Assembly: GCF_000520595.1 (NCBI RefSeq)
Contig: NZ_KI914978.1
Location: 262,232 to 326,231, forward strand
Origin: Arthrobacter sp. H5
GTDB taxonomy: Bacteria; Actinomycetota; Actinomycetes; Actinomycetales; Micrococcaceae
Direction: 5' to 3'
DNA: 64,000 nt
Shown here: piece by piece, positions 27,610 through 41,942 of the stretch
How the letters are laid out: each line of letters begins with the position of its first letter
Position numbering within the stretch: position 1 is the first letter of the stretch
Notes under the pieces: generated by a model
Seen by the model: the letters and a program-made list of their open reading frames with translations, nothing else
The model's database searches: none
What the model was told of the DNA's origin: nothing
Made by a program: the position numbers and the translations under genes

Positions 27610-28230
27610 ATGGCGAGATTCTTCGATGTTCATCCCCAAGATCCGCAGCCCCGTGCGATCGGCCAGATTGTGGATCTGGTGAAGTCCGGGGGGCTGATCG
27701 CCTACCCCACGGATTCGTGTTACGCGCTCGGAGCTCAGCTTGGCAACAAGGATGCCCTCGACCGCATCCGCTCAATCCGCCGACTCGATAGCAAACACCA
27801 CTTCACCCTGGTCTGCAAGGACTTCGCTCAGCTGGGGCAGTTTGTGCTCATCGACAACGATGTCTTCCGCAGCATCAAGTCGGTCACGCCGGGCAGTTAC
27901 ACGTTCATCCTGCCTGCCACCAAGGAAGTTCCCCGCCGTCTTCTCCATCCGAAGAAAAAGACGGTGGGCGTGCGTATTCCCGATCACAGAACGGTTCAGG
28001 CGCTGCTGGAGGAACTTGGCGAACCGCTGCTCTCCAGCACCCTACTGCTGCCGGACCAGGAGGAGCCACCCACACAGGGGTGGGAGATCAAAGAGCTGCT
28101 GGACCATCAGGTGGACGGTGTCGTCGATTCCGGGGAGTGCGGAGCCGAACCCACTACGGTAATAGATTTCTCAAGCGGTTCGGCCGAGATTGTGCGGCGC
28201 GGCATGGGCGATCCCTCCCGGTTCGAGTAG
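27610..28230 (+). CDS. Sua5/YciO/YrdC/YwlC family protein
   Basis: Protein of 206 residues with the YrdC fold. The segments GGLIAYPTDSCYALGAQ, RIRSIRRLDSKHHFTLVC and PGSYTFILPAT match the nucleotide/threonylcarbamoyl-AMP site region. Layout and the KKKTVGVRIPDH segment look closest to the YciO subgroup, so a role in t6A tRNA modification should be held loosely. It has a leaderless-type start and converges on the glycosyltransferase. Confidence 0.9.
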   Translation: MARFFDVHPQDPQPRAIGQIVDLVKSGGLIAYPTDSCYALGAQLGNKDALDRIRSIRRLDSKHHFTLVCKDFAQLGQFVLIDNDVFRSIKSVTPGSYTFILPATKEVPRRLLHPKKKTVGVRIPDHRTVQALLEELGEPLLSSTLLLPDQEEPPTQGWEIKELLDHQVDGVVDSGECGAEPTTVIDFSSGSAEIVRRGMGDPSRFE

Positions 28231-32266: not shown

Positions 32267-32823
32267 CACGCAAAACTCAACAATGCGAGAAGCTGACGGA
32301 GAGGTCCGCGATGCACGATCGTATGTGCCAGGGGAGGTATCGGGCCTGGTCGGTCACGCCGAATCCGGGATCTGTCTGGGGGCCGTGGGCTTCACAAGAA
32401 GGGGGCAACGCAGCCACAGAAAACGATCACCAGCAACAGAGACACGCACGCACACCTGCAGGCCGTTTGTGCACAGTCAGAGGACCAAAGAGTCCTGGCA
32501 ATGGGAAACAGGGGTTCTCCTTGATTGAAAGCCGCGACGCCGTTCGTACCGCGGACCAATGCATCTCGCCGGACTTTGAAATGGCCCTGGGGGATAGACG
32601 GGCGGTAGTTGCAGAGATAGCGTTGTGAAAATGAGAGATGTCGTTTTCATGGATGGTAAGAGCAGACTGCGGCCGGTTTTAGTGAGGTGCTCGCCGTTCT
32701 CTGCGACACCGAACCTATGGATGTAAAGTTCTGCGTTCTCATCACGGATCGCGGAGCAAACTCCATCACCGCTGATCCGAAACTGCACCGACATAGCGCT
32801 TCCGGGCTTAGAGCGGCCTTAAG
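32267..32823. other. Gene-free stretch containing tRNA-flank repeat copy 1
   Basis: No supported gene. It holds the first copy of the tRNA-Leu downstream flank (32387-32515). The rest shows only short, unrelated open frames. Confidence 0.6.
32387..32515. repeat. tRNA-Leu downstream-flank repeat, copy 1 (no tRNA portion)
   Basis: Related to 41740-41850 and 34925-35012. Shared landmarks in order are GGCTTCA, CAGCCACAGAAA, ACCAGCAAC, GCACACCTGCAGGCCGTT and TGTGCACAGTCAGAGGA. Homology stops before the tRNA 3' end, so this copy is truncated. Confidence 0.75.
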
Positions 32824-34739: not shown

Positions 34740-35176
34740 CTCAGTTGCCTCAGGCGGGGAGATGGCGTCGACGATCAGATTGATGTGGGTAAAAAGGACT
34801 CTCTGAAGTGAGTGGGGGTGCGACTATCTCTGGTATCGGAGTTTGGTTTCCACTGGTCCGCAGGCGAGATTGATGAGGGCCGGCGCGGCTTGTGGGTGTG
34901 GAATCCGTAGGATCTGCGGGTCATGGTACGCGACCAGAACCGGCACACACGCGCGCACACCTGTAGGCCGTTGTGCACAGTCAGAGGACCAAAGAGCCCC
35001 CTGACAAGGGGGAACACGGTGCCCGAAGTGGGACTCGAACCGGCTTCCACCCCTTGCAAACACTGGGAACTCCCGAAAAAATGCCCAATCCGGCGCAGTC
35101 TGCACCAGTACAACCCAATCCGAGTCCGAAAGTGTGCACATTGTGCTCACCCCCATTATTGGTGTTCTGGGCAGGC
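34740..35176. other. Gene-free stretch with tRNA-flank repeat copy 2
   Basis: No supported gene. It contains the repeat and att-like site listed separately, including a 5-bp CCCCC/GGGGG hairpin at 34997-35012 where the tRNA terminator would sit. Confidence 0.6.
34925..35041. repeat. tRNA-Leu flank repeat copy 2 with tRNA 3' end (att-like)
   Basis: Positions 35013-35041 match 41854-41882 exactly for 29 bases, covering seven bases of flank and the last 22 bases of tRNA-Leu (T-arm part, acceptor strand and discriminator). The preceding roughly 90 bases are a diverged copy of the tRNA downstream flank (GCGCACACCTGTAGGCCGTT, GTGCACAGTCAGAGGACCAA). After 35041 the sequence departs from the tRNA. 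This is the usual form of an attachment site left by integration at a tRNA 3' end. Confidence 0.85.
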
Positions 35177-35545
35177 TTAGCGTGGAACCATATGCCGGGA
35201 AATCACTAAGGCGGCATCCCGCAATTCCACCTTGCCGGACGCCGCTCCCACGACCAGGTCGAAGCCCTCATCGGTGGTGAAGTCGTGGCGGTATCCGTTG
35301 ATCCACAGCATCAGCACCATGAGCGTCCACGTTGTTCGCTTGTTCTCATCGACAAGTGGATGGAACCGGGCCACCGACTCCAACACGGCCGCAGCCTTCA
35401 TAGGCAGCTCGGGATAGACCTCAGCGCCCATGACGGTTGTTCCCGGGCGGGCCAAAGCGGACGCGAGGAGCCCAACATCCCCAATGTGAAACCCATAGCG
35501 GTCAACAACCCGCAGTGCGTCCTCAATGGTGAGATACGAACTCAT
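35177..35545 (-). CDS. Doc-like (Fic fold) toxin
   Basis: Protein of 122 residues of the death-on-curing family. Doc proteins phosphorylate EF-Tu and stop translation. The active-site loop reads HPLVDENKRTTW (about residues 61-72), against the family pattern HxFx(D/E)(G/A)NKR; glutamate replaces the small residue before NKR. The start overlaps the antitoxin stop by four bases (ATGA), the typical toxin-second order. Whether it is still toxic is unknown. Confidence 0.9.
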   Translation of the reverse strand: MSSYLTIEDALRVVDRYGFHIGDVGLLASALARPGTTVMGAEVYPELPMKAAAVLESVARFHPLVDENKRTTWTLMVLMLWINGYRHDFTTDEGFDLVVGAASGKVELRDAALVISRHMVPR

Positions 35546-35748
35546 GCATCCTCAAGTCGCGTCAGCAGCTCGGCATCATGGGTCGCAACAAAATCCAACC
35601 CCGCGTCGATGTCACGGCCGCGGTCATGGCGCTGGAGAACCAACTCGGCACCTTGGAGAAGCAGCGCTGACTTGGAAGTGTGCACCTCAGCTGCCAGCTC
35701 ATCGAGCCGGCGGTCGAGATCTTCAGGAACCCGCAAATTCATAGCCAT
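35542..35748 (-). CDS. Ribbon-helix-helix antitoxin
   Basis: Protein of 68 residues. The N-terminal part MNLRVPEDLDRRLDELAAEV fits a ribbon-helix-helix (CopG/MetJ-like) DNA-binding fold; the C-terminal half (HDRGRDIDAGLDFVATHDAE) probably binds the toxin. The second Met (residue 3) is an alternative start. It is first in the pair and lies just downstream of a GGTACC repeat, so it likely represses itself. Confidence 0.85.
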   Translation of the reverse strand: MAMNLRVPEDLDRRLDELAAEVHTSKSALLLQGAELVLQRHDRGRDIDAGLDFVATHDAELLTRLEDA

Positions 35749-36435: not shown

Positions 36436-36825
36436 ATGGAACGATTGATCACCGCTCTTCCCGAGGTGGAATATCTCGCGCGCATTGGTGAGGTTGCATA
36501 GGCCGTCTCCTCTTTGGAGTGGACACTTCTCGGAGACCTGCATCGCCTCGCAGACGGCCTTCCCTCCGATCCCACGCCCAAACGGCTCGAACCGATGACG
36601 GCGTCGGGGATTACGAGCGAGGTGCGGGAGGCGGCCAAGAGCACCACCAGGCGGTCCGACGAAGTACTATCCGGCCGCCGTCTATCGCGCGCTATTCGTT
36701 GCCGCTGAAATCAGGACTGACGTTCTGCACGCCAGTCCAGCGACGCGCCCAGATGGTGCCGAGAGGCTGCCGAGAGCAGAAACGCAGGACCACCGGCGTT
36801 ATGAACCGTACCGAGTTTTAGGCCG
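36436..36825 (+). pseudogene. Broken gene for an unrecognised protein (in-frame TAG, then frameshift)
   Basis: From the ATG, MERLITALPEVEYLARIGEVA ends at a TAG, but the same frame continues as AVSSLEWTLLGDLHRLADGL and LEPMTASGITSEVREAAKST. A frameshift near 36655 moves the reading to AVYRALFVAAEIRTDVLHAS and AETQDHRRYEPYRVLG. The three parts read as one protein interrupted by a nonsense change and an indel. The leaderless promoter is still present. Function unknown. Confidence 0.65.
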
Positions 36826-36859
36826 TCTTCTTGCTGGTCCCACAGGCGTCGACTTCGCC

Positions 36860-37345
36860 GGGGCGGCGAAGACCACCTGATTGATTGATAGCACCGACTT
36901 TCTCAAACTTCAGAGCCTTCCTCCCGGATCATCTTCGTTGGCGGCGGTTTCGTCTCGTTTGAATTCGCTCACAACGCCGCCCGCGCGGGAAGCTCCACGC
37001 TCACTGTCGATCGCGGTACCCGCCCGTTGAAAACATTCGACACGGATCTTGTCGAACTACTAATCACGCGGCACGGCGGAAGGAGTCGAAGTACATAGCG
37101 GCGCGAGCATCACCAGCATGGTCAGAGCCGGTACCGGACATCAAGTACACGTCGAAAAGGATGGCAGTCCGTCGACAATTGAAGCTGACCTCGTCGTCCA
37201 CGGCGCCGGCCAGCCCCGAACCTGTCCCGGCTCAATCTCGGAGCGGCACCTCCAGAGCACCACAAATCCTGGCGTCTAAACAGCGGGCGACTCGGCTGAC
37301 ACTCCCGGCATGCCGCTGACCCCTGTCGCTGTAATTGAGGCGAAA
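36860..37345 (+). pseudogene. FAD/NAD(P)-dependent oxidoreductase remnant (glutathione reductase-like)
   Basis: Several frames together give the middle of a pyridine nucleotide-disulphide oxidoreductase. LIDSTDFLKLQSLPP precedes RIIFVGGGFVSFEFAHNAAR (the NAD(P) dinucleotide fold). Then come STLTVDRGTRPLKTFDTDLV, VEVHSGASITSMVRAGTGHQ, EADLVVHGAG and GMPLTPVAVIEAKV. At least three frameshifts are needed, and the N-terminal FAD site and dimer domain are missing. Confidence 0.7.
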
Positions 37346-37473
37346 GTCAGCAGACGGCGGAACGGCCCTCAGGAAGATGGCCGGAGCTCCTGCCGCTCGT
37401 CAGACCGTCGCTTAGGACGGTTCTGCGACGATAACAGTATTTGGTGCTTCCCAGGGGTGGACTATCTGCGTAC

Positions 37474-37660
37474 TTAGCTCGCAGGCACTGGACCTGGACC
37501 CCCGGTGCGGTGTTCTTCGCCTATCACGCGGTTCCGGCCCGACAATACGGCGGTGACGCACAGAACGACCATCAATGCGGCGGTGATGGTCAACGAGAGC
37601 GTCCAACTGCCGCTGACGTCGCGCAGGGCGCCGAAGGCCACCGGCATTAGCGTTCGAGCC
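37474..37660 (-). pseudogene. 3' fragment of an MFS transporter gene
   Basis: The minus strand encodes LMPVAFGALRDVSGSWTLSL followed by TITAALMVVLCVTAVL and a polar tail to a normal stop. This is the last membrane segment of a major facilitator, CynX/NimT-like. Homology ends near 37660, where D-cysteine desulfhydrase homology begins on the other strand. Confidence 0.55.
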
Positions 37661-37664
37661 GAGA

Positions 37665-38008
37665 AGGCGCCCCAGGAAGCTAAAATCCATGCTCTTGCGA
37701 ATGCGACCTCCGAATTGGCAGGTGCCAACCTTGAGATTCCCTTCGAGGAGATTACGGTCAGAGACGAATTTGTGGGCCCCGGCTACTCGCTTCCTACGAC
37801 CGAAATGACTGCGGCGATTCAGACTTTCGCACGAGTGGAAGGGATCCTCCTGGACCCCGTCTACACCGGCAAAACCGCAGCCGGCCTCATCGGCCTTATC
37901 CGTGAAGGGGCGTTGGAACGGGACAGTAATGTGCTGTTCATCCACACCGGCGGTGCTCCTGCCATTTATGCCTACCCCAATGAAGTGCTCGCCGAGACGA
38001 ATGCCTAA
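37665..38008 (+). pseudogene. 3' fragment of a D-cysteine desulfhydrase / ACC deaminase family gene
   Basis: About 110 C-terminal residues of a PLP-dependent fold II enzyme: EAKIHALANATSELAGANLE, ITVRDEFVGPGYSLPTTEM, RVEGILLDPVYTGKTAAGLI, NVLFIHTGGAPAIYAYPNEV. The N-terminal two thirds, including the PLP lysine, are absent; the break coincides with the reversed MFS fragment. The stop overlaps the racemase start. A start upstream at 37505 exists only as antisense to the MFS fragment. Confidence 0.75.
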
Positions 38009-38717
38009 GCAAGCACAGCCGTCCCGAATTGTCGGAATTTTGGGCGGGATGGGGCCAGCTGCGACGGCCGACTTTTATCAGAAGCTGATTCTGGCGACTC
38101 CGGCAACGCGTGATCAGGACCATTTGCGTGTAGTCATGTGGGCGGATCCCACCGTACCGAATAGACAGGAGGCACTCCTGCACAATGGTGCGGATCCGAC
38201 CCCCTGGCTAGAAGAAGGCGTCGAACACATTCTGCGAAGCGGCGCCGAGATCATCGTCGTCCCTTGCAATACCATTCACGCTTTCCTACCGGGTGTCCTC
38301 GAAGGTAAGAGCATCGAGTTCATCAACATCATCGACACAACTATCAAAGCTATTTGCCAGCGCGGACCGGTGACAAAGGTCGGTTTGCTCGCGACCGACG
38401 GTGCGCTGGCGTCCGAGGTGTATCAGGCGGCGCTTCAGGCAGCCGGCATCGAACCAATACTCCCGTCGGAATCATCGCAGAAAACGCTGATGAAGCTGGT
38501 CTATGGCGTAAAAGCGGGCGAGGTGGGACCAGACGAGCGTGAACAGGTCGGACCATTATTGACTGAATTACAGGCAAACGGAGTATCGACCGTAGTAGTC
38601 GGGTGCACAGAAATTTCGGTGCTGCTCGAGGGCCTCAACAGCGAAATGTGCATCATCGATCCGTCCCAGGTATTGGCGCTCAAGACAGTAGAACGGGCGC
38701 GCATGTGCGGAGCGTAA
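38001..38717 (+). CDS. Aspartate/glutamate racemase family protein
   Basis: Cofactor-independent racemase of 238 residues. Both catalytic cysteine motifs are present: VVPCNTIHAFLP and VVGCTEISVLL. The substrate loop is GILGGMGPAATADFYQKL. The ATG overlaps the last eight bases of the desulfhydrase fragment. The next gene starts two bases after its stop. The neighbours suggest racemisation of an amino acid such as aspartate, glutamate or a sulfur analogue, but the substrate is not shown. Confidence 0.92.
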   Translation: MPKQAQPSRIVGILGGMGPAATADFYQKLILATPATRDQDHLRVVMWADPTVPNRQEALLHNGADPTPWLEEGVEHILRSGAEIIVVPCNTIHAFLPGVLEGKSIEFINIIDTTIKAICQRGPVTKVGLLATDGALASEVYQAALQAAGIEPILPSESSQKTLMKLVYGVKAGEVGPDEREQVGPLLTELQANGVSTVVVGCTEISVLLEGLNSEMCIIDPSQVLALKTVERARMCGA

Positions 38718-38719
38718 TC

Positions 38720-39739
38720 ATGCCGGTCAATTTTCTGATAAACCGTGGAACAATATGGACCGGACTGGCATTGTGCACGCTCCTCGGTCTTATCGCTGCC
38801 GGCCTTGGAATGTTGGTGCCAGCTATCGGCGGGCCCGTTTTCGGCATCGCACTTGGCGTACTGACACGGCGCTTTCTCGGCGAGCGTCGAAGTCTTGAGC
38901 CCGGGATCAAGTTCTCTGCTAAGACGGTCCTTCAAGCTGCTGTAGTCCTTCTCGGTGCCGGGCTGGCGCTGAACCAGATAGCGATCATCGGATGGTCCGC
39001 GCTGCCAGTCATGCTCGGCACCTTGACACTCGCCATGGTGGCAGGACCATTTATCGGCAAATGGCTTCGGATCGGCTTTGACACCCGCACATTGATCACC
39101 GTTGGCACTGGGATTTGTGGCGCATCAGCCATCGCCACCATCAGCGCTGTCATTGGTGCTTCACAAACCGCGATCGCGATCTCAGTGACGGTAATTTTCG
39201 TCTACAACATACTCGCGGTGTTGCTGTTTCCCGCCGTCGGAAACATCTTGGGGATGTCCCAAGAGTCGTTTGGGCTTTGGGCGGGAACTGCGATAAATGA
39301 CACCTCTTCTGTGGTGGCCGCGGCCACCATCTACGGTGCCATCGCGACGTCACAGGCAGTGGTTGTAAAACTTACAAGAACACTTATGATTATCCCCATT
39401 TCCATTGGACATGCCTGGCGCCACTCTCGTACGGCGGAGGCGTCTGATGGCGGTTCGTCCGGTGCGCTGGCTTGGACACGACTTGTGCCGCCATTCCTGC
39501 TCTTGTTCCTTCTAGCCGCAGCGCTGAATACGGTGGGGTTCATCCCGGATTTCCTACAAGAACACCTCAACTCATGGGCAGCATTTTTCACCGCGGTTGC
39601 TCTGTCCGCCGTCGGCCTGAGTACACCAATCGCAGCGATGCGGGAAGCAGGATGGAGGCCGCTGGCCCTCGGCGGGATTCTGTGGGTGCTTGTTGCCGTC
39701 AGCGCTGTCGGAATTCAGCTCCTCACCGGACAGCTGTGA
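38720..39739 (+). CDS. YeiH-family putative sulfate exporter
   Basis: Membrane protein of 339 residues with about ten hydrophobic segments. Conserved family segments are SLEPGIKFSAKTVLQAAVVL, LITVGTGICGASAIATISAV and WAGTAINDTSSVVAAATIYG. YeiH/UPF0324 proteins are annotated as sulfate or sulfonate exporters. It follows the racemase by two bases, forming an operon. With a desulfhydrase upstream, removal of sulfur products is a reasonable guess. Confidence 0.9.
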   Translation: MPVNFLINRGTIWTGLALCTLLGLIAAGLGMLVPAIGGPVFGIALGVLTRRFLGERRSLEPGIKFSAKTVLQAAVVLLGAGLALNQIAIIGWSALPVMLGTLTLAMVAGPFIGKWLRIGFDTRTLITVGTGICGASAIATISAVIGASQTAIAISVTVIFVYNILAVLLFPAVGNILGMSQESFGLWAGTAINDTSSVVAAATIYGAIATSQAVVVKLTRTLMIIPISIGHAWRHSRTAEASDGGSSGALAWTRLVPPFLLLFLLAAALNTVGFIPDFLQEHLNSWAAFFTAVALSAVGLSTPIAAMREAGWRPLALGGILWVLVAVSAVGIQLLTGQL

Positions 39740-39757
39740 CCCAAATATGAGCATCCC

Positions 39758-39916
39758 CCCGCAGTGACCGCAGGCCGGTCTTGCGGGCCAGGGCAAGATA
39801 AATCAGCTCGTCGATTAGCTCGGTGTACCCGATGCCGGACTTGGCCCACATGCGGATACATCGACGTCGGCGTGAAGCCGGGTATGGTGTTAATTTCGTT
39901 GATCACCACCCGCCCA
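39758..39916 (-). pseudogene. C-terminal fragment of D-alanine--D-alanine ligase
   Basis: The minus strand gives VVINEINTIPGFTPTSMYP (the ligase ATP/Mg-binding segment NEINT-PG). After one frameshift it continues MWAKSGIGYTELIDELIYLA and ALARKTGLR, the normal end of the enzyme. The 5' side is cut by the ISL3 remnant and the 3' side by the YeiH junction. A full copy elsewhere is expected, since the enzyme is essential. Confidence 0.7.
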
Positions 39917-39924
39917 TCCTTGGT

Positions 39925-40478
39925 TTAAAAGAAATCCGGCCCTTCGCATTCAAGCATGGGTCGCCGGTTGGTTCGGTAGAGGCGGTGGCCGCCGGCGGCG
40001 AGTAGGCATCTGAGTCTGTAGTTGGTGAAGTTGCGGAAGCCTCGGGCGATCCAACGGGTGGTTTCGATGACTCCGTTGATGGCTTCGGTAGGCCCGTCGG
40101 TGTCGAAGCAGGCCAGAGTCGCGCTCTTCCAACTGCGCAGGTTCCGGCCGAGGCGGGCGATCTCAGGAATCGGGCAGGTCGGGAAAGCGGTGAGTACCTC
40201 GGCGACCAACGCCCTGCCTTTCTCGGGGCCGACGTATAGATCGACCGCAGCTGCTGGTAGCACTGCCAGTCCAGGGTCACTTCATGGCCTGGGTCTCCGG
40301 CAGTGGGTTTCGCATTCAGTCGTACGATCTGTTTGTCGGTGAGGTGCTCGGCCCCGGATTGGAGGGTGCGGCGGATGCCGTAAAGCGGATCGCCCTTGCG
40401 TCCGCAGTGCCCGAGGGTGTCCTGCTGCACGCGGCGGCGTACCTCATCGACGGCCTACCCACACAACTTCACGACATG
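39925..40478 (-). mobile_element. ISL3-family transposase remnant
   Basis: Minus-strand homology to the C-terminal half of an ISL3 transposase: AFHVVKLCG, a stop codon, then AVDEVRRRVQQDTLGHCGRK and HEVTLDWQCYQQLRSIY. After a frameshift near 40230 come PTCPIPEIARLGRNLRSWKS, DTDGPTEAINGVIETTRWIA and RGFRNFTNYRLRCLLAAGG. The N-terminal part is missing. Inactive. Confidence 0.8.
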
Positions 40479-40757: not shown

Positions 40758-41169
40758 GTGCAGCGTGTCGTTGATTCATTTGGGTTTGGTGGGCCGTCAG
40801 ACTTGAAGCATGGTTGATGTGCCGAAGGCGCTTGTACTGCGTGAGGGTGACCGGAAGCGGCTGGAGGCGCTGACGCAGGGTAAGTCCCACCTCGGCGACG
40901 ATGGCCCTGCGGGCGAGGACCGTTTTGCTGGCTGCCGACGTGCTGCCGAATGTCCAGATCGAGAAGTCCACCGGATTACCGCCACGACGGTACTGAAGTG
41001 GCGTAACCGCTATGCCCGGGATGGGATCGAGGGGCTTAAGGACATGGCCTGTCCGGGCCAGGAACCGGTGATTGATGAGCTGGCGCTGATTGCCGAAACC
41101 CTGACCAACGACGGGAAGCCGCCGGCGGAACTGGGAATCTCCCATTGGTCCCCACGCAGATCAGCCGCT
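40758..41169 (+). mobile_element. IS630-family transposase remnant inserted in IS256
   Basis: Starts MVDVPKALVLREGDRKRLEA, shifts frame to MALRARTVLLAADVLPNVQI, then TTVLKWRNRYARDGIEGLKD and ELALIAETLTNDGKPPAELG, ending at ISHW. This is the N-terminal helix-turn-helix part of an IS630 transposase; the DDE catalytic domain is absent. Confidence 0.75.
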
Positions 41170-41423
41170 GTCCCCGGGCCAATCGCACTGACCCCGACCG
41201 CACTTCGGGGAACATCCGGAACGGAACGCGCTCGAAGACCGTGCTGACTGAAGCGACGGGCGAAGCCACCATCGAGGTTCCGAGGGATCGGGACGGTTCA
41301 TTCGAGCCACAGATCGTGAAGAAGCGCCAACGCCGGCTGAACCGGGTCGAGGAGGCGGTGCTCTCGTTGTACGCGAATGGTCTGACGACCGGTGAGATCA
41401 GTGCGCATTTCGCTCAGATCTAG
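41170..41423 (+). mobile_element. IS256-family transposase, second piece
   Basis: RANRTDPDRTSGNIRNGTRS followed by KTVLTEATGEATIEVPRDRD, FEPQIVKKRQRRLNRVEEAV and LSLYANGLTTGEISAHFAQI. It continues the IS256 protein where the 40570-40757 piece stops, then ends at a TAG before the catalytic domain. Confidence 0.8.
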
Positions 41424-41860
41424 GGACTGCTGAATGTTTGCTTGACACTTTGACCTGTGAGGAAAAGCCGCGCGGTTGGATGGATGTTCATCCTGCCCAG
41501 GGCCTTTCCCGAAAAGTTAGTCCCTGCCGTGGTCGCGGTAATCCTCAGGGGCGAAGCACCCGGACCGCGATCGCCGAGAACTCCGGGTTTCCCGAGCAGC
41601 ATTGCACCTGCAGTTTGCTTCGCCCCCGGGCTGCTTCGCACACAGCGAGGTTCAGGAACACACAATCAGACTTCAACCTAGTCATGGGGCTATGACAACA
41701 CTCGCCCATGAAATAGTAAGAATCCCCGACCGCGGGCTTCATGAGGAAGAGGAGGCATCCAGCCACAGAAACGACCACCAGTAACCCAAACCAGCACACA
41801 CAGCTGCAGCCGTTTGTGCACAGCCAGAGGATGAAAGACCTCTGACTTGGGGAAACACGG
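41424..41860. other. Gene-free stretch between IS remnants and tRNA-Leu
   Basis: No supported gene. The last 120 bases are the third copy of the tRNA downstream flank (41740-41860), with a CAGAGG/CCTCTG hairpin at 41825-41844. Confidence 0.6.
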
Positions 41861-41882
41861 TGCCCGAAGTGGGACTCGAACC
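41740..41882. repeat. tRNA-Leu flank repeat copy 3, with the intact tRNA 3' end
   Basis: Reference copy of the repeat. Bases 41854-41882 equal 35013-35041, and the flank is related to 32387-32515. Confidence 0.8.
41825..41844 (-). terminator. Possible terminator of tRNA-Leu
   Basis: A 6-bp stem CAGAGG/CCTCTG with an 8-base loop lies 16 bases past the tRNA 3' end on the minus strand. Confidence 0.4.
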
Positions 41883-41942
41883 CACACACCTTTCGATACT
41901 GCATTTTGAGTGCAGCGCGTCTGCCAATTCCGCCATTCGGGC
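41861..41942 (-). tRNA. tRNA-Leu (CAA anticodon)
   Basis: Eighty-two bases fold as a class II tRNA. The acceptor is GCCCGAA paired with TTCGGGC plus discriminator A. The D arm is in TGGCGGAATTGGCAGACGCG, the anticodon stem is CTGCA/TGCAG around loop CTCAAAA (anticodon CAA, codon UUG), and the T arm is in TGGGTTCGAGTCCCA. The 3' CCA is not encoded. Its 3' end is the 29-bp direct-repeat site used by the accessory region. Confidence 0.95.

Follow-up and report, generated by a model that had tools for sequence, protein, structure and literature searches.

CuyB is described as interconverting L- and D-cysteate, and CuyA as favouring D-cysteate, from which it forms pyruvate, ammonia and sulfite (PMC11382572). 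In the reannotated genome of Ruegeria pomeroyi DSS-3, SPOA0158 is given as an L-cysteate sulfo-lyase and SPOA0157 alongside it as the sulfite exporter cuyZ (PMC4334477); the genes of the public record analysed here (cuyR-cuyA-cuyZ, locus L186) were matched to these by gene order. A 64,000-nucleotide stretch of Arthrobacter sp. H5 (contig NZ_KI914978.1, positions 262,232 to 326,231, hereafter the window, numbered from its first letter) holds a locus that is most likely the remnant of a cysteate operon, cuyA'-cuyB-YeiH, when substrate and reaction are assigned from these published roles. The pathway is likely to be dead, with cuyB and a YeiH-type exporter gene as its two leftovers. In the following, compared genomes and loci carry the handles G and L, respectively, and G000 is the genome of strain H5 itself.

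The anatomy of the locus (Table 1), like its family assignments and its truncation, was computed directly. The C-terminal fragment of a PALP-superfamily enzyme, an Asp/Glu racemase gene and a YeiH-type exporter gene are contiguous, with an 8-base overlap between the first two (38001-38008) and 2 bases between the last two (38718-38719), as an earlier note on this DNA had described. That note regarded the first gene as dead and the last two as intact, and indeed the fragment covers only positions 214-330 of the 332 of the CuyA model, whereas cuyB and the YeiH gene match their family models nearly end to end and contain no stops. The missing residues 1-213 include the N-terminal part expected to hold the lysine that binds pyridoxal phosphate, which we take to be that of the GGNK motif at residue 49 of the intact L016 protein. 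The fusion of the fragment to the 3' end of a major facilitator superfamily (MFS) transporter gene on the other strand also stands, and supports the proposed loss of the first gene through a rearrangement, but it was placed near 37660 and the homology limits put it at 37640-37644. According to blastn, CuyA homology starts at 37639-37640 in four of seven CuyA loci (at 37731-37763 in the other three) and MFS homology extends as far as 37644; the overlap between these limits, 5-6 bases at most, would be compatible with joining at a microhomology but can be chance. Nor is the geometry head-on, as had been stated, since the two fragments diverge, back to back, each having lost its 5' part.

Table 1. 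Features of the cuy locus and of the surrounding tRNA-Leu island in the window.
Feature	Position	Strand	Basis or remark
cuyA 3' fragment (D-cysteate sulfo-lyase family)	37640..38008	+	122 codons and stop; N-terminal 213 residues gone
cuyB, cysteate racemase (most likely), Asp/Glu racemase superfamily	38001..38717	+	238 aa, full length
YeiH/PSE-type putative sulfite or sulfate exporter, in CuyZ position	38720..39739	+	339 aa, full length
MFS transporter gene, 3' end, 5' part gone	37474..37644	-	stop at 37474-37476
Join of the two truncated genes	37640..37644	not applicable	blastn limits of CuyA and MFS homology
tRNA-Leu (CAA), island anchor	41859..41942	-	ARAGORN; Rfam RF00005, 59.3 bits
Proximal att-like repeat, overlapping the tRNA 3' end	41799..41882	not applicable	repeat comparison
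Distal att-like repeat (24 bases of tRNA-Leu 3' end and flank)	34956..35041	not applicable	84% to 41799-41882
Oxidoreductase gene remnant, frameshifted	36865..37351	+	tblastn with an intact 450-aa protein of G016; residues 149-324 match, split over two frames
ISL3-type transposase remnant	39925..40263	-	PF01610, positions 165-239 of 240
IS256 (mutator) transposase remnant	41145..41423	+	PF00872, positions 54-126 of 379; split match to plasmid IS256 records
Fic/Doc-type toxin and CopG-type antitoxin, same module	35177..35748	-	PF02661 and PF01402

The family best matched by the fragment is NCBIfam NF052482 (CuyA, D-cysteate sulfo-lyase), with 154.8 bits against 102.2 for the next family; this lies below the curated cutoff of 450 and marks a remnant, not a family member. 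At the protein level the fragment is 76% identical over 122 residues to the intact CuyA of a genome of the same family (G203). Six intact CuyA relatives (G203, G111, L041, L043, L044 and L047) score 501-530 on the same model and pass its cutoff, and the R. pomeroyi CuyA, used as a positive control, scores 553. The racemase is most likely CuyB according to the cysteate racemase model NF052483 (254 bits, cutoff 190, model positions 1-224 of 225), in addition to its match to PF01177 (132.3 bits against 31), and is predicted to racemise cysteate. Its Cys89 and Cys202, presumably the catalytic pair, are invariant in three aligned sequences. Sulfonate use, one of the two roles suggested for the cassette in the earlier note, is thus supported by a racemase that passes the CuyB model and by intact relatives that pass the CuyA model. 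A second relative of the racemase is found elsewhere in the strain H5 genome (G000:C83:51037-51669, 24% identity).

The third gene product matches PF03601 over profile positions 2-303 of 304 (211.1 bits against 24.5) and scores 122 bits on TIGR00698, under the cutoff of 232.6, which the R. pomeroyi CuyZ likewise misses (124.1). It is a putative sulfite exporter, and the direction of transport is a prediction. In a 19-row tree it is separate from CuyZ, which forms a very long branch of uncertain placement. The S. coelicoflavus (Streptomyces coelicoflavus) plasmid NZ_CP108219.1 (L185) carries a YeiH gene of the window lineage 2.5 kb from cuyA-cuyB; its product is 51% identical to that of the window and 31-32% to the other two lineages, and, unlike in the window, the gene lies on the opposite strand beside a LysR gene of its own. 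Four of the seven best plasmid matches to the YeiH protein (NZ_CP109206, NZ_CP107978, NZ_CP108219 and NZ_CP045548), all from Streptomyces and possibly related to one another, are also among the best 20 of 114 plasmid matches to cuyA, and the other three are absent from those 20. A second YeiH relative of the strain H5 genome (G000:C21:16132-17061, 31%) has one internal TAG.

The arrangement of these genes recurs in other genomes. In all nine loci with a CuyB at least 50% identical to that of the window (L033, L034 and L041-L047), cuyA lies directly 5' of cuyB; L034 and L042 are the same contig, as are G111 and L042, which leaves eight independent loci, and this regularity bears out the proposal that desulfhydrase, racemase and exporter form one operon. 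Among the best 80 of at least 494 confirmed CuyB loci, fractions of which describe the top of the list only, cuyA precedes cuyB directly in ten, namely in all seven with a CuyB at least 51% identical (L041-L047) and in the more distant L099, L108 and L119, and two further loci (L102 and L103) hold a partial cuyA relative about 6 kb away, at the locus edge. Intact cuyA-cuyB pairs occur in several actinobacteria, including the same-family genomes G203 and G111, and in one Deinococcus. CuyA relatives with E values of 1e-60 or better, not all of them CuyA, were found in 114 of 72,556 plasmid records, and plasmids of Deinococcus deserti and Streptomyces coelicoflavus encode CuyA and then directly CuyB, both of which pass their models.

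The closest parallels are the triplets of Corynebacterium alimapuense, Arthrobacter cryoconiti and Arthrobacter sp. Soil764 (L041-L043), in which a YeiH-type gene follows cuyA-cuyB in the same order and on the same strand, so that the search for intact triplets urged by the earlier note shows that the genes do occur together. Their CuyA is 72-76% identical to the G203 protein and their CuyB 54-57% to that of the window, but cuyA is whole, the YeiH protein is of another lineage (28-30%), and, unlike in the window, a DegT-type aminotransferase gene and a histidinol-dehydrogenase-family gene precede the triplet in L041 and L043. The cuyA-cuyB pair of G203 (L016/L033) encodes the closest CuyA and the closest CuyB (62%) and, with the corresponding ATG as the start of cuyB, shows the 8-base overlap of the window; judged by eye, it is followed by an M20-type amidohydrolase gene, not by YeiH, and has a divergent GntR-type regulator gene upstream. 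The R. pomeroyi locus resembles that of the window in that a CuyA-family enzyme adjoins a PF03601/TIGR00698-type exporter, and differs by its LysR regulator, by having no adjoining racemase gene in the annotated stretch and by a CuyZ of another lineage (32%), while it is in the window that cuyA is truncated.

Further genes accompany some of the intact pairs. An NhaC-type transporter gene is found upstream of cuyA-cuyB in L041 and L044-L047 (by Pfam in L041 and L044, by tblastn in the rest). The DegT-type aminotransferase gene and an HpsN-like histidinol-dehydrogenase-family gene lie directly 5' of the pair in L041 (2256-4902), L043 (2327-4915) and L047 (2448-4994), as called by Pfam in L041 and by tblastn in the other two, and no sulfolactate dehydrogenase was seen by eye among the genes listed at these three loci. 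For R. pomeroyi, PMC11382572 describes the cysteate-forming aminotransferase as unidentified. As an idea only, the two genes might be candidates for cysteate formation by an aminotransferase, or might act on an amino-sulfonate alcohol.

The MFS fragment does not appear to belong to this operon. Over 42 residues it is 67% identical to the C-terminal region of an MFS protein that the same genome encodes at full length (G000:C56), and its DNA is 67% identical to that gene over 125 bases (blastn); its 84-aa open reading frame (ORF) has no Pfam match, and its name rests on the earlier note and on a look at the sequence. When the full-length protein was compared with its own genome, only the intact C56 gene and the fragment were found, and no orphan 5' piece. 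At an E value of 1e-5 and within the stretches compared, this MFS family is present in none of 86 loci (two same-family cuy loci, 80 named CuyB loci and four plasmid stretches) and in none of the 18 that hold a cuyA relative, hence the join to cuyA looks accidental. Membership of the MFS gene in the operon was rejected on the same count, and the MFS gene that the earlier note wished to see sought beside intact cassettes is absent from the stretches compared. An MFS gene of a different kind lies downstream of cuyB in L044 (by eye). In G018 the gene of the window's MFS family follows a distant PALP relative (38%), an adjacency not seen in four other genomes examined or at the intact copy of the MFS gene in strain H5, and treated here as coincidence.

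We propose that a cuyA-cuyB-YeiH-type operon was acquired horizontally into a tRNA-Leu(CAA) island, and that a deletion or other illegitimate recombination then cut into both cuyA and an unrelated MFS gene and fused their interiors. With the operon intact, CuyB would convert L- and D-cysteate into each other, D-cysteate would be split by CuyA into pyruvate, ammonia and sulfite, and the sulfite would leave the cell through the YeiH protein. Because CuyA has lost its N-terminal 213 residues, the pathway would be dead at its key step, and cuyB and the exporter gene, whole but deprived of their native upstream region, would probably be leftovers whose decay is still to come. Relative to the divergence from the G203 and G111 relatives the cut is probably recent, since no stop interrupts the 122 codons of the fragment, which keeps a constrained pattern of differences at codon positions 1, 2 and 3 (0.17, 0.11 and 0.52 against G203, compared with 0.25, 0.19 and 0.66 between G203 and G111 for the same part of intact CuyA), although these relatives are too distant for such counts to give the cut an age or to establish that cuyB and the YeiH gene are in use today. 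The neighbouring oxidoreductase gene, which is frameshifted, and the pieces of the ISL3 and IS256 transposase genes are more decayed than the fragment.

Several observations weigh against this explanation. The six intact CuyA relatives pass the subfamily model TIGR01275, which is named for D-cysteine desulfhydrase (302-322 against 289.4), and the solved structure nearest to the G203 CuyA is 7ysk, named D-Cysteine desulfhydrase (376 bits; the next two, 272). The YeiH protein belongs neither to the CuyZ lineage (32% to R. pomeroyi CuyZ) nor to the cuyB-adjoining lineage of the triplets (28-30% to L017, L041 and L043), and its nearest relative found (59%, G567) has no cuy gene within the 14 kb examined. 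A distant full-length PALP relative (39-46%) is present in 12 other genomes of the genus, to which the superfamily is therefore not foreign. Finally, the codon-position patterns of cuyB and the YeiH gene look constrained, as expected if they are still in service, and the join at 37.64 kb is that of a draft assembly. On the substrate, the earlier note had thought of a cassette for D-cysteine or other D-amino acids, made of a D-cysteine desulfhydrase and an Asp/Glu racemase, and the names of the subfamily model and of the structure speak for it, as do the public records that call the CuyA of R. pomeroyi, Deinococcus and Streptomyces (L186, L183 and L184) 'D-cysteine desulfhydrase'; CuyB is recorded as 'amino acid racemase' in L183 and L184. 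Because the R. pomeroyi CuyA passes TIGR01275 too (331), just as the intact relatives do, this model does not separate a D-cysteate from a D-cysteine enzyme, and the R. pomeroyi protein carries the generic label although PMC4334477 gives it as L-cysteate sulfo-lyase. All six intact relatives miss the three listed equivalogs for D-cysteine desulfhydrase (283-297 on the best of them, cutoff 429), and the best equivalog scores of the R. pomeroyi (305), Deinococcus (334.8) and Streptomyces (295.4) CuyA are likewise below 429; the fragment passes neither the equivalog NF003030 (91.6 against 429) nor TIGR01275 (84.2 against 289.4). With the racemase passing the CuyB model as well, D-cysteine is not supported as the substrate, and such a cassette is very unlikely.

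Mis-assembly, with two unrelated genes wrongly placed together at 37.64 kb, is a highly improbable account of the join, even though the assembly is a draft of 104 contigs and the MFS family is absent from the 18 loci with a cuyA relative. An error of this kind would leave the missing 5' halves of cuyA and of the MFS gene elsewhere in the assembly, which is rated 99.84% complete, and neither was found; a full-length CuyA query returned only the fragment and a 30% match in another gene of the window, and no second cuyA. This absence favours a real deletion or recombination over a mis-join, and the stretch sits inside a 353-kb contig. It is somewhat easier, yet still unlikely, to suppose that cuyB and the exporter gene remain in use, transcribed from a newly gained promoter and maintained by selection, with cysteate, aspartate or some other acidic amino acid as the substrate of the racemase. 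Neither gene is shortened, the CuyB cysteines are conserved and the codon-position pattern is constrained, while the neighbouring genes are, by contrast, frameshifted or fragmentary. However, the two genes have lost their native 5' region, the genome yielded no other CuyA, and the cut looks recent, so that the intactness of the two genes requires no selection. Consensus scans miss many actinobacterial promoters, and it is weak evidence that the surviving promoter before 38001 contemplated by the earlier note was not found in a sigma-70-like scan of 36800-39900, where one site was detected in total (39363) against an average of 1.3 in shuffles. A dead cysteate pathway with two leftover genes is the most likely reading.

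Genomic islands that are anchored at a tRNA gene and carry tandem att repeats are a general known kind, and the surroundings of the cuy locus resemble them in that a tRNA gene borders one side, its 3' end is repeated and one relative has the site empty. In the att-like repeat the final 24 bases of the tRNA are followed by some 50-60 bases of flank, and a flank-only copy lies at 32446-32513. In G013, sua5 lies 69 bases from tRNA-Leu, whereas in the window it is found at 27610-28230, which corresponds to about 13.6 kb of extra DNA; this insertion relative to G013 was also computed directly, and two long collinear blocks of the window and G013 obtained by tblastx were rechecked by blastn and tblastn. 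G013 is the only one of 29 relatives in which sua5 adjoins the tRNA; in the other 28 it is not within the approximately 1.5 kb examined, and for this reason they do not serve as empty sites. A difference from typical islands is that no integrase was found among the island ORFs scanned with Pfam, a scan that covered part of the ORFs of the 13.6 kb. The flank beyond the tRNA is partly common to six of the 29 relatives at the tRNA itself (over 20 bases only in L125), and further copies of the repeat are present in G009, G023, G027, G028 and G033. Copies of the repeat, each about 74 bases long, are numerous, and in G027:C34 and G009:C5 they lie along the same contig as tRNA-Leu, as if modules had been added successively at the tRNA-Leu site.

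The insertion at the tRNA, the repeats and the absence of a close CuyB from the 37 other genomes of the genus (best match 30%), taken together, suggest that the operon was acquired by lateral transfer into a tRNA hotspot and then decayed. PALP relatives with E values of 1e-20 or less are present in 13 of these 37 genomes, in 12 over most of their length and in one, G019, at the N-terminus only; the latter match (G019:C5, L197 5398-5646) is about 58-60% identical to the N-terminal part of CuyA, 60% over 83 residues, and is possibly another broken cuyA of the genus. Two Paenarthrobacter plasmids carry a Doc/CopG pair whose DNA matches that of the window at 75.6%. None of 189 plasmid records and not the one phage record covers 80% of the 6.9-kb module; partial matches concern the toxin-antitoxin pair and transposases (best 10 of the 189 plasmid records) or a transposase (the phage record), and a phage or plasmid as the source of the whole module was rejected. 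The oxidoreductase remnant was typed by eye as of the pyridine-nucleotide-disulfide type, and a further gene remnant at 39715-39909 on the reverse strand looks, by eye, like the C-terminus of a D-alanine-D-alanine ligase. G005 (L135) has the 24 bases of the tRNA 3' end, without flank, repeated about 1.4 kb from the tRNA, and in G009 a histidinol-dehydrogenase-family gene (L180 9874-11208, 49% to that of L041) lies between a copy of the tRNA-Leu repeat and tRNA-Leu.

To conclude, the locus is a case of ordinary gene decay within an acquired island and concerns a known kind of operon, and it illustrates the decay of an acquired catabolic operon within such a tRNA island. Its main value is as a correction: in this case the generic names 'D-cysteine desulfhydrase + Asp/Glu racemase + YeiH' most likely stand for the pathway of the sulfonate cysteate, now lost. 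The locus also adds one further case of YeiH beside a sulfite-releasing enzyme. A broader idea, tentative and rather doubtful as a whole, is that YeiH-type exporters have come to lie beside cuyA/cuyB on three or more occasions, each time from another lineage (R. pomeroyi CuyZ, the Corynebacterium/Arthrobacter clade and the window lineage, which is also found on the Streptomyces plasmid), and that the tRNA-Leu(CAA) hotspot of the genus moves organosulfonate modules between species. If true, the repeated placement of YeiH near cuyA/cuyB would be indirect evidence for sulfite export by the poorly understood YeiH family.

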